Below, in pieces: positions 7,649 through 19,349 of a stretch of 37,614 nt of DNA; within the stretch, counting starts at the first letter, position 1; every line of letters begins with the position of its first letter. Under the pieces are notes generated by a model. That model ran no database searches and was not told where the DNA came from. It saw nothing but the letters and a program-made list of their open reading frames with translations. Source of the DNA: Candidatus Bathyarchaeota archaeon (lineage in GTDB: Archaea > Thermoproteota > Bathyarchaeia > Bathyarchaeales > Bathycorpusculaceae); the NCBI GenBank assembly GCA_003165195.1, contig PLSP01000030.1, positions 1 through 37,614 on the forward strand, written 5' to 3'. Made by a program: the position numbers and the translations under genes.

Positions 7649-9337
7649 TTACGGGATGGCGGTTGCTTCCTTCACTTCAGCAGTTGCCTTTTTAGCTGCT
7701 GGCTCAGTAAGCATACCAATCAGTTGCCCATTCTTAACCATAACCGCCCGTTTAATACCCCTTTTCTCCATAAGCTTCATGGCGTAAATCATCGACTCGT
7801 CCCCTTTCAGAACGATCAGTGGCGTATAATCAAGGTCTTTTGCAAGCGTTTTCAATGGGTCTTTATGTTTATCAACTATTTCTCTGAGAAGGTCTCGATC
7901 GTTTACCAATCCAATAGGCTTGTGGCCCTCAGTTATCAAAATTGAGGTAACGCTGTTCTGAAGCATTTTATTCACGAGGGTTGCAATGACTTCAGTTGTT
8001 GATGCCTCTACGGTAGGTAGTTTGGTTCCAGCTTGGCTGCTGACTTCTTTTATGTCTATGCCTCTCTTCCAGATGTCATTTAGCATTTCGCTAACTCGCT
8101 CAATCTGGCTTGGGTCAGTGGAGTAGAAGGTGTCCGCCAAATAAAACGCTGATTCGGTTCCGACATCGCTCAGCGGAGGCATTTTAAACATGAATAAATG
8201 CATGTTGTCAACGAGCATCATTGTTAAGTAGCTAATTGGAACATGCTTGATCTCAAAACGTGTTGCAAGTTTCTGTGCGGGTTCAAGATTATCTAGGTCA
8301 ATAGAGGCCATTATCCGTACTTTCAAGCCTTTTCTAAAGTAGCTTACTAGAGGGTCGTCTTCGGCGAGTCGGTTTATCCCTTGAGATGAGGTTATTACCA
8401 CTATTTCCTTTTTAGCAGAATCCAATATTTTGGTGACTTTAGCCCATGCATCCTCTACGCCTTTGATAACCACAGTTTCGCCCATGGGTATGCCGCTTTT
8501 TAACTCTTCAATTCGTCTTGAAGCGTCAACCCCTGTCTGCCACATCTGCACAAAGAAGGCTTTCAAAACTGAAATAAACATTTTATCGTTAATCCACAAG
8601 CCTTCGTCTTCCAAATTAAGGACAGATGTTTCGTTGCCGAATGGGGCATAAAGTATTGCTTCTTCCTCGTCCTTTATTAGAAAACGTGGGAAAAATTTGG
8701 AGCTCATGCCAACATGGCGTAGTTTGATGTTTATTTTTTCTTCATCTATGCTGCGGTCGATTTTCTCCACGATTTTGAGGTTTTCAGGGGATATCTCAGT
8801 TATAATTTGGAATTGGGTGTTGTGCTCTTGAGATGTGTTAAAGGCTGCGTCAAACACGCCTGCTATGTCTTCTTGAATAAAACCCAGAGCTGTGGTTAAA
8901 ACAATAACTTGACTGTTGGATTCCTCAATCATGGATAACATTTTGGAGTGAATCTTTTTTTTGCCTGTGATTATTGAGAATTTGGCGACTGGATATTCCG
9001 ACTCAGGAGCGCTGAGCGATTGCCAGGCTGTTAGCAAGTCCTGTTTTTGATCGTTTAGGTTGGTGACCTCGTTTTTTTTGGCGTTAATAAACGAGTCAAC
9101 TAAGGCTTCAAAAGGAACAATCGTGAACCTAGTCGGTCTCTCCAAGGTTGCTTCAATGAAACCTTTCTCTTGGAGTTTCTTGAATGTGCGGTAAGCTTGA
9201 ACTCGCTCCATCTTTAACCGCTTTGCTACAAAACTGGTGGATTGAACGCCGCTCTTAGCGAGGAACATGTATACTTGGATTTCCCTTTTTGAGAGCCCAA
9301 GCAACTGCAAAAACTTAGTTACGTCCTTTTCGCTCAT
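7649..9337 (-). CDS. TrmB-family transcription regulator with tandem sensor units and a C-terminal CBS pair
   Basis: A 562-aa protein. Residues 1–75 form the TrmB winged helix (LGLSKREIQVYMFLAKSGV, then VAKRLKMERVQAYRTFKKL). About 110–290 is a phospholipase-D-like sensor fold (FSIITGKKKIHSKMLSMIEE, VIVLTTALGFI). About 295–445 is a second unit of the same kind (VTKILDSAKKEIVVITSSQGI). About 450–555 is a pair of CBS motifs (VTSILITEGHKPIGLVNDRDLL; MEKRGIKRAVMVKNGQLIGML). Usual TrmB proteins are ~340 aa with one sensor; the additions suggest two ligands, CBS pairs commonly binding adenine nucleotides. It lies directly upstream of the tpiA operon on the same strand with a separate promoter, so control of glycolytic/glycogen genes is a fair guess. 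Start is ATG. Confidence 0.85.
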   Translation of the reverse strand: MSEKDVTKFLQLLGLSKREIQVYMFLAKSGVQSTSFVAKRLKMERVQAYRTFKKLQEKGFIEATLERPTRFTIVPFEALVDSFINAKKNEVTNLNDQKQDLLTAWQSLSAPESEYPVAKFSIITGKKKIHSKMLSMIEESNSQVIVLTTALGFIQEDIAGVFDAAFNTSQEHNTQFQIITEISPENLKIVEKIDRSIDEEKINIKLRHVGMSSKFFPRFLIKDEEEAILYAPFGNETSVLNLEDEGLWINDKMFISVLKAFFVQMWQTGVDASRRIEELKSGIPMGETVVIKGVEDAWAKVTKILDSAKKEIVVITSSQGINRLAEDDPLVSYFRKGLKVRIMASIDLDNLEPAQKLATRFEIKHVPISYLTMMLVDNMHLFMFKMPPLSDVGTESAFYLADTFYSTDPSQIERVSEMLNDIWKRGIDIKEVSSQAGTKLPTVEASTTEVIATLVNKMLQNSVTSILITEGHKPIGLVNDRDLLREIVDKHKDPLKTLAKDLDYTPLIVLKGDESMIYAMKLMEKRGIKRAVMVKNGQLIGMLTEPAAKKATAEVKEATAIP

Positions 9338-13536: not shown

Positions 13537-14649
13537 TTGAAAACATCTCACCAAATCTACTTCAAAAACGCAATCGAATTGCGGGAATTACCTGATGATT
13601 CTATAGACTTGATGGTTACTTCACCGCCTTATCCAATAATTGAGATGTGGGATGGCATTTTCTCAGAGCAGAATTCCGCCATCAAGGATGCGCTTGAGCA
13701 GAACGATGGAAACAAGGCTTTTGAGCTTATGCATCAAGAGCTTGACAAGGTTTGGGCAGAAGTATTTCGTGTTCTGAAGCAAGGTGGATTTGCATGCATT
13801 AACATTGGGGACGCGACGAGAAAAATAGGTAAAGAGTTTAAACTTTATGTTAATCATTCAAGGATACTTGAATGCTGTTTGAGTTTGGGTTTTAGTTGTC
13901 TTCCGGAAATTCTCTGGAGAAAACAAACCAATGCACCAAACAAGTTTATGGGTTCCGGAATGCTTCCCGCAGGCGCTTACATCACGCTGGAGCACGAATT
14001 CATTCTTGTTTTGAGAAAGGGCGGCAAACGCGAATTCAAAACTGCAGAAGAAAAACTAAAGCGGATGCAGAGCGCCTTTTTTTGGGAAGAAAGAAACCTT
14101 TGGTTTTCTGATGTTTGGGAAGACCTCAAGGGCACTAAGCAAAATAACATCAACAAAAAAATCAGGGAGAGAAGCGGCGCTTACCCGTTCGAGTTAGCTT
14201 ACCGCATAATTAACATGTTTTCTATCAGGGAAGATACTGTTTTGGATCCCTTTCTTGGGACTGGAACCACCACGGCAGCTGCTATGGCCACAGGAAGAAA
14301 TAGCGTCGGAATTGAAATTGACCCCAACTTCAAAAACCATTTGGAAGAACGGTTTGAAGACATAGTTGATTTTTCAAACAGGTTAATCGAGAACAGAATT
14401 AAGAAACATTTACAGTTTGTCCAGGAGCGAATAAAAAATAAGGGACCGCTGGGATACATTAACAAAACTTACGATTTTACTGTTATGACCAGCCAAGAAG
14501 TTGAACTGATGTTCGACGAGTTGGAAAAAACAGAAATTAAAGACAATATTTTCGAGGTTGATTACAAAGAGAAGCCAACCTTCGTCTTTGGGAAAGGTAT
14601 GGTAGGTTCAATTAATAAGGTACCTTTGAGCAAATGGATTAGAACTTAG
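13537..14649 (+). CDS. beta-class DNA methyltransferase (N4-cytosine/N6-adenine type)
   Basis: A 370-aa enzyme. Catalytic motif IV is TSPPYP (28–33), the S-P-P-Y form favoured by N4-cytosine methylases. SAM motif I is DPFLGTGTT (237–245), followed by NSVGIEID. Motif IV before motif I defines the beta class. The recognition region lies between (~90–215), and the ~90-residue C-terminal extension is charged. TTG start; a TATA-like GATTTATTAA lies ~50 bp upstream. It converges with, and overlaps by 3–4 nt, a decayed gene resembling MjaI-type restriction enzymes. It is therefore probably the surviving half of a type II system, perhaps CTAG-specific (inference). Confidence 0.88.
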   Translation: MKTSHQIYFKNAIELRELPDDSIDLMVTSPPYPIIEMWDGIFSEQNSAIKDALEQNDGNKAFELMHQELDKVWAEVFRVLKQGGFACINIGDATRKIGKEFKLYVNHSRILECCLSLGFSCLPEILWRKQTNAPNKFMGSGMLPAGAYITLEHEFILVLRKGGKREFKTAEEKLKRMQSAFFWEERNLWFSDVWEDLKGTKQNNINKKIRERSGAYPFELAYRIINMFSIREDTVLDPFLGTGTTTAAAMATGRNSVGIEIDPNFKNHLEERFEDIVDFSNRLIENRIKKHLQFVQERIKNKGPLGYINKTYDFTVMTSQEVELMFDELEKTEIKDNIFEVDYKEKPTFVFGKGMVGSINKVPLSKWIRT

Positions 14650-15940: not shown

Positions 15941-16162
15941 CACTCTAAATGCCCAGCGGCCATGTGTGTAAAGAAAGCAAATCTTAGAATGTGCTTGATG
16001 CTATTTGATTGTGATCTCCGCTGATATCAACTCTGCTAGATTTAAGTTAGTAGTTAGGTCATGCAGGGGAATTTTAGCCATAAATGGTCTTTCGTTAAGT
16101 TTAAACTGTGGCGTGGAATTATAGGTAGAGCACCACTGTTTGGGAGTATAGGGGAAGGTTTT

Positions 16163-18382
16163 ATGGTAAATCAGCCACAGCTTCGTGCACGCGGCGTCAA
16201 GGTGCTTAAAGCTGTTTCTTCACCGCTTCGGCTGCAAATCCTCAATTTGCTTTTTGATAAGAGCGCACTTTCCTACACTGAACTTATGAACGAACTCAAA
16301 ATGAACCCTAGCCGAGATGCCGGCAGATTCGCTTACCATCTCAAGTTCATGTTAAAAGCTGAGTTGGTTGAAGCAGACGTTGAAGCAAAAAAATATTTCC
16401 TTACCGACCTTGGCAAAATGGTTCTAGACGTTGCTGACCGTATAGAAAAAAAAGCTGTTAAACCCCGCGGAATGCTTGTTCGCACTTCGCATTTGACGAT
16501 GGAGGAGTTTGACGCTAACAAAATAGCCAATTCGTTGATTAAAGAAGCCAAAGTACCCGCTGAACTTGCGCAGAAAGCGGCGAAAGAAGCTGAGAAGCGA
16601 CTGGTTAAATCCAAAACAAAGTATCTCACTGCCGCTTTGATTAGAGAAATGGTGAATGGGATTCTGGTTGAGAAAGGGTACGAAGACTACCGCCATAAAC
16701 TGACGCGCGTCGGAATGCCAGTACATGAGGTAACCGCGGCGGTAGAGGGCAAAGAGCAGACGGCAGATTCAGCGGCTATCCTCTCGAAGGCGGGGCAATC
16801 AGTGATCGGCGAGTACACGCTGCTAAACATTTTCCCAAGGGATATAGCTGATGCTCACCTGTCAGGCGCTATCCACATCGACGGCCTGGGAACGTGGATA
16901 CTTGAGCCCAACGAGGTAAGCCATGACATGAGGTTCTTTCTGCAAAACGGTCTTAAACTCGATAATACACAACAGGTCAGCGTTGAACCGCCACCAGATT
17001 TTGAGTCAGCCTTGGCATTAGTATTCAATGTCATGTTGCATTCCAGTAAAGAGGTGAACCACACTCAAACATGCAGCTACTTCAACGTTTTTTTGGCGCC
17101 CTTTGCCCGAGGTAACGAACCTTCAAGGCTTAAGGAACATTTGCGTTTGTTCGTCTTAAATTTGAACCAGCACGTTGATGCATCTTTGGGGCTGGAGCTT
17201 TTAACTCCAAAGTTAACCGCGAATAAAGAAGCGATTGGTCCACAGGGTCAAACATGTGGCAAATACTGCGACTACACAGCGGAAAGCCAACTCTTAGCCC
17301 AACTTACGCTTGAAGTTTTCACAGAAGAAAATGGGCAAAAACCTTTGCTTAACCCCAAGCTAACGCTGCGAGTTAGCAAAGATACTTTTGCAGACGAAAA
17401 AGCCGGAGCGCTTCTCCTTAAAGCTCACGATTTGGCGGCTCAGAAAGGCACAGTTTACTTCGCAGCGACAACAAAGAAAGAAGGGGAAAATGTGGTGTAC
17501 TCAACTTCGGGAGTAAAGTTCGCCTCCGACTTGACGGGTGAATGGGAAACGGATACTCTGCGGACGGGCTGTCTAGGCTGCGTAACCATTAATCTACCAC
17601 GAATAGTGCAAGAGTGCGAAAAGGACAAGAACAAGTTTTTAGAGTTAGTTAAGGAACGGTTTGAACTCTCAGCTCGCGCCCTAGTAATTAAAGGTAACAC
17701 GCTCAAACAGTTTGGAAAGAACTCACTGCCGTTCCTGCTCAAAAACGGCAGCGGCGACATTTACTTCAGGCTTGAAAACAGCTCGCGAATCATCAACCTT
17801 GCAGGGTTCCGAGAAGCCGTTGAAACCTTCACAGGGAAAAGCATAAACTCGGAGGAAGGTCGCAGATTCGCCGAGGAAACAATTCAGAACATTTTAGCGT
17901 TTAAGCAAAAGGTCGGCAGAAAATATGGCAGGCGCCTTTACCCAATTATGCTTGGCAATGCTGAAGCTTCAGAGCGTCTTGCGCAACTTGATATTGAAAA
18001 GTTCGGGGTAGCCAAAGTGAAGTTTTCTGGGACACGGGAAAAGCCATACTATTCAACTGCTCGACGGTTACAAGTCTCACTGGTTGGAGAAACTCTCTCT
18101 TTGCAGACTGAGCAGTTGGAAACTGCTCAGAAACTAAGGGGGCTCAACACCGGAGGAACGCTCTGCATCCTTGAGTTGGATGGTGCCGAAGTGAAGCCGG
18201 AAGCGCTGATAAGTCTGACTCGGCGCATCGCGGAAAACCAAACCCTTGAGTTCTTCACTTACAACCGGAGAGCAAGCTACTGCGGCAACTGCAAAAAAAG
18301 CTGGTTTGAAACCCTTCATAAATGCCCTTGTTGTGGTTCCATGAGCGCAATAACAACGTTTGACCGCTTCACTTCAACATAA
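16163..18382 (+). CDS. winged-helix / ATP-cone / NrdD-like protein lacking the glycyl-radical glycine
   Basis: A 739-aa protein. Residues ~10–90 are an ArsR-like winged helix (VLKAVSSPLRLQILNLLF, AGRFAYHLKFMLKAELVE). About 104–185 is an ATP-cone (FDANKIANSLIKEA; LIREMVNGILVEKGY). About 200–700 is an anaerobic ribonucleotide reductase-like barrel, including HTQTCSYFNVFLAPFARG and RTGCLGCVTINLPRI (Cys470, Cys473). A zinc ribbon closes the protein (Cys707, Cys710, Cys721, Cys724). True NrdD then continues with an RVxGY glycyl-radical motif; here the chain ends DRFTST, with Ser738 where Gly is expected. It therefore probably cannot hold the radical. A nucleotide-sensing regulator is plausible. 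I chose the ATG at 16163 (GGGGAAGG 4 nt before) over one 34 codons upstream, whose extra residues match nothing. It is convergent with pyrB. Confidence 0.85.
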   Translation: MVNQPQLRARGVKVLKAVSSPLRLQILNLLFDKSALSYTELMNELKMNPSRDAGRFAYHLKFMLKAELVEADVEAKKYFLTDLGKMVLDVADRIEKKAVKPRGMLVRTSHLTMEEFDANKIANSLIKEAKVPAELAQKAAKEAEKRLVKSKTKYLTAALIREMVNGILVEKGYEDYRHKLTRVGMPVHEVTAAVEGKEQTADSAAILSKAGQSVIGEYTLLNIFPRDIADAHLSGAIHIDGLGTWILEPNEVSHDMRFFLQNGLKLDNTQQVSVEPPPDFESALALVFNVMLHSSKEVNHTQTCSYFNVFLAPFARGNEPSRLKEHLRLFVLNLNQHVDASLGLELLTPKLTANKEAIGPQGQTCGKYCDYTAESQLLAQLTLEVFTEENGQKPLLNPKLTLRVSKDTFADEKAGALLLKAHDLAAQKGTVYFAATTKKEGENVVYSTSGVKFASDLTGEWETDTLRTGCLGCVTINLPRIVQECEKDKNKFLELVKERFELSARALVIKGNTLKQFGKNSLPFLLKNGSGDIYFRLENSSRIINLAGFREAVETFTGKSINSEEGRRFAEETIQNILAFKQKVGRKYGRRLYPIMLGNAEASERLAQLDIEKFGVAKVKFSGTREKPYYSTARRLQVSLVGETLSLQTEQLETAQKLRGLNTGGTLCILELDGAEVKPEALISLTRRIAENQTLEFFTYNRRASYCGNCKKSWFETLHKCPCCGSMSAITTFDRFTST

Positions 18383-18389
18383 AGAAATC

Positions 18390-19349
<960 letters not shown>

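Follow-up and report, generated by a model that had tools for sequence, protein, structure and literature searches.

A winged-helix protein derived from class III ribonucleotide reductase as a probable nucleotide-responsive regulator of reductase genes in Thermoproteota

The window analyzed here, a stretch of 37,614 nucleotides, lies on contig C50 of an archaeal genome of 3.16 Mb and harbors a gene for a 739-residue protein, hereafter R, whose features are collected in Table 1 together with its neighbor pyrB. The comparison of R with Pfam returned HTH_5/DUF7347 over residues 14–89 (E about 1e-6; 28.7 bits for HTH_5 against a cut-off of 22), the ATP-cone (PF03477; 31.5 bits against 25.8) and NRDD over residues 208–736 (E 1.7e-66), all three exceeding their own curated cut-offs, and in NCBIfam the equivalog score for NrdD, the class III reductase, stayed below its cut-off (237.5 vs 326 bits). 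In the AlphaFold model of R (mean pLDDT 82), the top Foldseek matches were class III reductases (E 2e-24), with T4 NrdD reaching a TM of about 0.7 by target, and the N-terminus was matched by the winged-helix protein HlyU at a TM of 0.76 by target. The winged helix, ATP-cone, NrdD-like barrel and four-Cys ribbon that an earlier note on this DNA had recognized between 16163 and 18382 were confirmed. The model of an R protein from an ammonia oxidizer was of low confidence (pLDDT 59) and did not resolve the winged helix, NrdDs still being its top fold matches. Elsewhere in the window, we also observed a TrmB-type winged-helix regulator at 7649–9337 (minus strand), in which the TrmB sensor part is accompanied by a C-terminal CBS domain match, and an N6/N4-type DNA methylase gene at 13537–14649 (plus strand).

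Table 1. Position of R, of its domains and diagnostic residues, and of adjoining features, counted from the first letter of the window.
Feature	Position	Strand	Remark
R promoter element TTCGTTAAGTTTAAACTGTGGCGTGGAATTATAGGTAG	16091..16128	+	conserved in 19-21 genus relatives
R (739 aa): winged helix, ATP-cone, predicted dead NrdD barrel, Zn ribbon	16163..18382	+	whole gene
Winged helix, residues 14-89	16202..16429	+	RDAGRFAYHLK region nearly invariant
ATP-cone, residues 105-177	16475..16693	+	RTS in place of KRDG
NrdD-like barrel and C-terminal domain, residues 208-736	16784..18370	+	
Glu251	16913..16915	+	where the first catalytic Cys stands (E. coli NrdD Cys175)
Val451	17513..17515	+	where the thiyl-radical Cys stands (E. 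coli NrdD Cys384)
Barrel segment TGCLGCVTINLPR, residues 468-480	17564..17602	+	flagged in the earlier note; Cys there non-catalytic
Four-Cys ribbon, Cys707/710/721/724	18281..18334	+	
Ser738	18374..18376	+	where the radical Gly stands (E. coli NrdD Gly681)
pyrB (aspartate carbamoyltransferase)	18390..19328	-	conserved tail-to-tail neighbor of R

Both ends of the gene recur among its relatives. Relatives within the genus share the start MVN at 16163, which makes the in-frame ATG at 16061 an improbable start of R, and they stop at the same place (...FDRF.ST), which rules out a mis-called stop or a frameshift. The earlier note had described an end at DRFTST with Ser in the place of the radical Gly, and had named an RVxGY motif just past a mis-called stop as the finding that would overturn its reading. 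The open frame and its end hold, relatives ending alike; RVxGY is absent from that place in the genus, and no glycyl motif was found past the stop in the window. The origin of R from a single metagenome-derived contig could raise the suspicion of an assembly or sequencing artefact, in which separate genes were joined or a false stop was introduced. This reading has a negligible probability and we treat it as refuted by the homologues, because the same architecture and the same end were found in independent genomes, some of them single-contig.

R homologues were aligned with 44 NrdDs, including the E. coli enzyme as numbering reference. Cys175, Cys384 and Gly681 were each present in 44 of 44 NrdDs. 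Among the 83 R homologues, the first catalytic Cys was found in none, the thiyl-radical Cys in three and the radical Gly in six, these being distant homologues that carry the Gly in a degenerate setting and have neither catalytic Cys; no homologue combines more than one of the three residues. The loss of the Gly, from which the earlier note had argued, is therefore not shared by all homologues. It is also accompanied by losses which that note had not seen: besides both catalytic Cys, R lacks the NxN flap and most of loop 2, and another residue replaces the second His of its HxHD substrate motif (both motifs as named in PMC11226230). NrdDs encoded in the same genomes retain the two motifs along with the catalytic residues. 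The four Cys of the Zn ribbon were retained in about 80 of the 83. Judged from these residues, the barrel of R is catalytically dead, and the losses, in combination with the retained ribbon and the purifying selection described below, indicate that it was kept as a protein body while its chemistry disappeared. A working but unusual reductase that employs other residues could be imagined from the NrdD-like fold and from the one Cys kept in three members and the Gly in six. We regard it as highly improbable, since the catalytic set is found in no member, the flap and the substrate motif are gone, and the relatives that encode R also carry a separate, catalytically complete NrdD or, in ammonia oxidizers, the class II enzyme NrdJ.

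The conservation of R is distributed unevenly along the protein. Mean pairwise identity amounted to 74–75% in the winged helix and cone vs 43–49% in the barrel, and dN/dS to about 0.02–0.03 vs about 0.07, the barrel value deriving from two unsaturated pairs only; the winged helix and the cone are the parts of R held most tightly under purifying selection. The cone does not carry the usual KRDG signature and exhibits an almost invariant R-T/K-S instead. This replaced motif, VRTS, is common to R and to active NrdD of the type found in family f7, which is compatible with an origin of R from an archaeal NrdD of that type.

Of 41 related Bathyarchaeia genomes examined, 40 carry the full-length form with the helix-turn-helix (in two of these, a contig end truncates the gene or an insert interrupts it); the exception, G038, has NrdD only. 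In a sample of 398 Thermoproteota genomes, matches starting in the winged helix occurred in at least 120, a lower bound counted by hand among the matches listed. The combination that the earlier note had read in one gene is thus ancient and conserved. It extends to ammonia-oxidizing archaea, as which families f19, f48 and f51 are identified by their archaeal amoA; complete R sequences were read from five f19 genomes. The R proteins formed one clade with SH-aLRT support of 100 in the whole-length tree and 99 in the barrel-only tree, and the subgroups largely track genome families, as would be expected if inheritance was mainly vertical.

The gene order around R links it to reductases. Directly downstream of R on the same strand, we observed nrdD in families f2 and f7, a glutaredoxin gene followed by nrdD in f4 and f6, nrdD-nrdG in f37, and the class II gene nrdJ in ammonia oxidizers, f61 and f10; in families other than that of the window, an nrdD separates R from pyrB. 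The R-nrdJ order of the ammonia oxidizers comprises five loci that were read and six taken from coordinates (G068, G208, G291, G314, G353 and G360), and in f61 the two open frames are 75 nt apart. In genome G183 (L159:2951-5062), a bacterial-type nrdD occupies the slot held in relatives by glutaredoxin-nrdD, with a short truncated glutaredoxin upstream, as if the resident gene had been displaced in place. With nrdJ, three types of nrdD and this bacterial-type gene, different reductases fill the slot after R, and their diversity in class and origin suggests selection for a reductase at this position. The view of the earlier note, an inactive reductase joined to a DNA-binding head, is supported, with genetic linkage to reductase genes of two classes in addition. 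Since aerobic amoA-bearing archaea keep R beside a class II enzyme, its role does not lie in class III catalysis.

Several observations were made alongside. The glutaredoxin-like gene between R and nrdD (L045:4236-4598 and its equivalents in f4 and f6) possibly encodes the electron donor of the class III enzyme. In several families distant from one another, R is immediately preceded by a thiolase-DUF35 gene pair (L127:3400-4988, L134, L137, L152). In genome G040, the NrdD genes at L091:2178-5438 and L050:1854-4775 contain intein-like inserts ending HN|C at active-site cysteines, located just before CysCysArgLeu in the former and at the first catalytic Cys in the latter.

The neighborhood also holds genes that are not reductases, and pyrB is the commonest neighbor of R. 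Many R genes adjoin pyrB with no reductase near, the window included; in its genus the slot after R is empty and R abuts pyrB, having persisted there though the neighboring nrdD is gone. The locus of f37 (thiolase-DUF35-R-nrdD-nrdG-pyrB, with pyrB on the opposite strand) joins two contexts, as thiolase-DUF35 lies upstream of R in ammonia oxidizers and f20 and pyrB lies tail-to-tail with it in Bathyarchaeia. From such loci it might be argued that R controls other genes, either of growth and replication or pyrB and hence pyrimidine supply, and that its closeness to reductases is partly inherited order; the genus promoter motif, found at R promoters only, would fit, as would the thiolase-DUF35 genes upstream in ammonia oxidizers, f20 and f37. 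We consider this unlikely. The convergent pyrB can have no promoter in common with R, and reductases as different as nrdJ, three types of nrdD and the bacterial-type gene of L159 follow R, which points to selection for a reductase there.

The main rival to a regulator of transcription is a partner at the protein level, in which the dead barrel or the cone would pair with NrdD or NrdJ and tune its activity, the winged helix serving autoregulation only. The operon-like neighborhood and the retention of barrel and Zn ribbon accord with this, and the NrdJ encoded by R in f61 and f10, like the NrdD by R in f6 and f7, has no Pfam ATP-cone match, so that R could supply the sensor. However, the ammonia-oxidizer NrdJ carries a cone of its own, a single partner would need to fit both NrdD and NrdJ, which are only distantly related, few parts of R are as constrained as the winged helix, and R has outlasted the neighboring nrdD in the window genus. 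On balance we find such a partnership unlikely.

The element TTCGTTAAGTTTAAACTGTGGCGTGGAATTATAGGTAG upstream of R probably comprises the TATA region together with a candidate operator, and its long form occurs once in the window genome. R genes of the genus share an element around GTTAAGTTTAAACTCTCCAGTGGAATAATAGGTAG, 55–69 nt before the start, and all ten exact matches of GTTAAGTTTAAAVTC in 15 genus genomes fall at R promoters; this promoter element of R, GTTAAGTTTAAAC, may be core promoter plus operator or mainly core promoter. The nrdD units downstream of R exhibit a conserved palindromic site, TACANNATTTTATAC, with a log-likelihood of 117, whereas none of eight shuffled controls exceeded 94. 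Eight genomes contained five exact matches, four of them at nrdD units after R and the fifth apparently intragenic. This enrichment is partly circular, as the motif was drawn from the same promoters, and is informative only in the scarcity of the motif elsewhere. Of the shared promoter motif envisaged by the earlier note, conservation within each set stands and identity between the sets does not: GTTAAGTTTAAAC and TACANNATTTTATAC differ, and a single operator common to R and the adjoining nrdD units was not established. Between R and nrdJ in ammonia oxidizers (L127, L129, L163, L164), we also observed a conserved element, CGTAACGGTGTNAACA, resembling CGTAACGGTGTNAACANNATTGA, as a candidate operator.

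The window organism possesses a genuine NrdR, the bacterial reductase repressor. On contig C42 of the same genome lies a bacterial-type nrdR-nrdD-nrdG operon with nrdR directly upstream and a catalytically complete nrdD, which supplies the separate nrdD and nrdG that the earlier note had proposed to look for; no class I or II reductase was found. The genome search with TIGR00244 matched at C42 only, with no match at the window. Read by eye, the genus promoters of nrdR-nrdD contain apparent pairs of NrdR boxes, and no such pairs were seen in the R promoters read, where a different element stands. Across the phylum sample, true NrdR exceeded the cut-off only in f1, the family of the window (35 genomes), and in G327. 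R as a replacement of NrdR in the window organism is ruled out by the genuine NrdR upstream of a complete nrdD-nrdG, and the archaeal NrdR analogue proposed in the earlier note does not survive there in the sense of a substitute; it fits better outside f1 and G327, where the sampled genomes lack NrdR.

Together, the computed architecture, the lost catalytic residues, the constraint on winged helix and cone, the single clade and the adjacency to nrdD and nrdJ, to which we add the nrdD palindrome, argue for R as a nucleotide-responsive, DNA-binding transcriptional regulator of reductase genes that is itself derived from a class III reductase. Against it we counted the cone without KRDG, the differing promoter elements, the loci with pyrB only, among them the window, and the presence of NrdR in the genus. 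Weighing both sides, we hold this reading to be reasonably probable, and R to be most likely NrdR-like in its working without being NrdR; that it binds DNA and nucleotides, which genes it targets and in which direction it acts are what we infer from the computed features. In such a mechanism, R would have evolved from NrdD and retained the dead barrel as a dimerizing, possibly nucleotide-binding body. The ATP-cone (a-site), perhaps with a remnant of the specificity site, would sense ATP, dATP or dNTP levels, and the ArsR-like winged helix would bind the promoter of the downstream reductase unit and perhaps that of R itself. When dNTPs are plentiful, a change in conformation or oligomer would alter reductase transcription, most simply by repression, and R would thus probably act as a repressor. 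With less assurance, we lean toward an ancient Thermoproteota family in which a reductase begot its own regulator, for whichever class of reductase is present, as a second, independent NrdR-like control that NrdR itself joined later in one archaeal family.

Transcription-level control of dNTP supply seems little studied in archaea, and the R family offers a concrete candidate regulator in well over 100 genomes, including ammonia oxidizers, where it stands beside a class II reductase. By domain match, its genes could be named 'anaerobic ribonucleoside-triphosphate reductase' and falsely hint at anaerobic dNTP synthesis in aerobes. We found no description of the family in the open-access literature searched. 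According to that literature, few archaea have NrdR (PMC9110341), and the ATP-cone hardly occurs outside reductases and NrdR (PMC11226230). Like R, NrdR joins an ATP-cone to a DNA-binding domain and is often encoded beside reductase genes, as in the nrdRJ arrangement of Streptomyces (PMC9110341). However, NrdR comprises about 150 residues with an N-terminal Zn ribbon and a cone and binds paired NrdR boxes, whereas the 739 residues of R combine a winged helix, a divergent cone and the dead barrel, its Zn ribbon being C-terminal and corresponding to the structural site of NrdD; the NCBIfam scan returned no NrdR family match on R. With class III NrdD (PF13597), R shares the barrel, the C-terminal Zn ribbon and the position of the cone, with homology over residues 208–736, and differs in lacking the catalytic set, NxN flap, HxHD and an intact loop 2 and in its additional N-terminal winged helix. 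The ArsR-type regulators (ArsR/SmtB; HTH_5, with HlyU by fold) resemble R in winged-helix fold and sequence match, but the helix of R has no metal-site CxC motif (residues 1–104 of the window protein contain no Cys), and its effector part is a reductase instead of a metal site. The principle proposed here is also found in ROK-type repressors, in which an enzyme fold turned sensor is fused to a helix-turn-helix, although theirs is a sugar kinase fold with sugar ligands and unrelated to R. R would provide a clean example of an enzyme turned sensor and would belong to a known functional kind, that of cone-bearing regulators specific to reductases, in which its architecture and origin are new.
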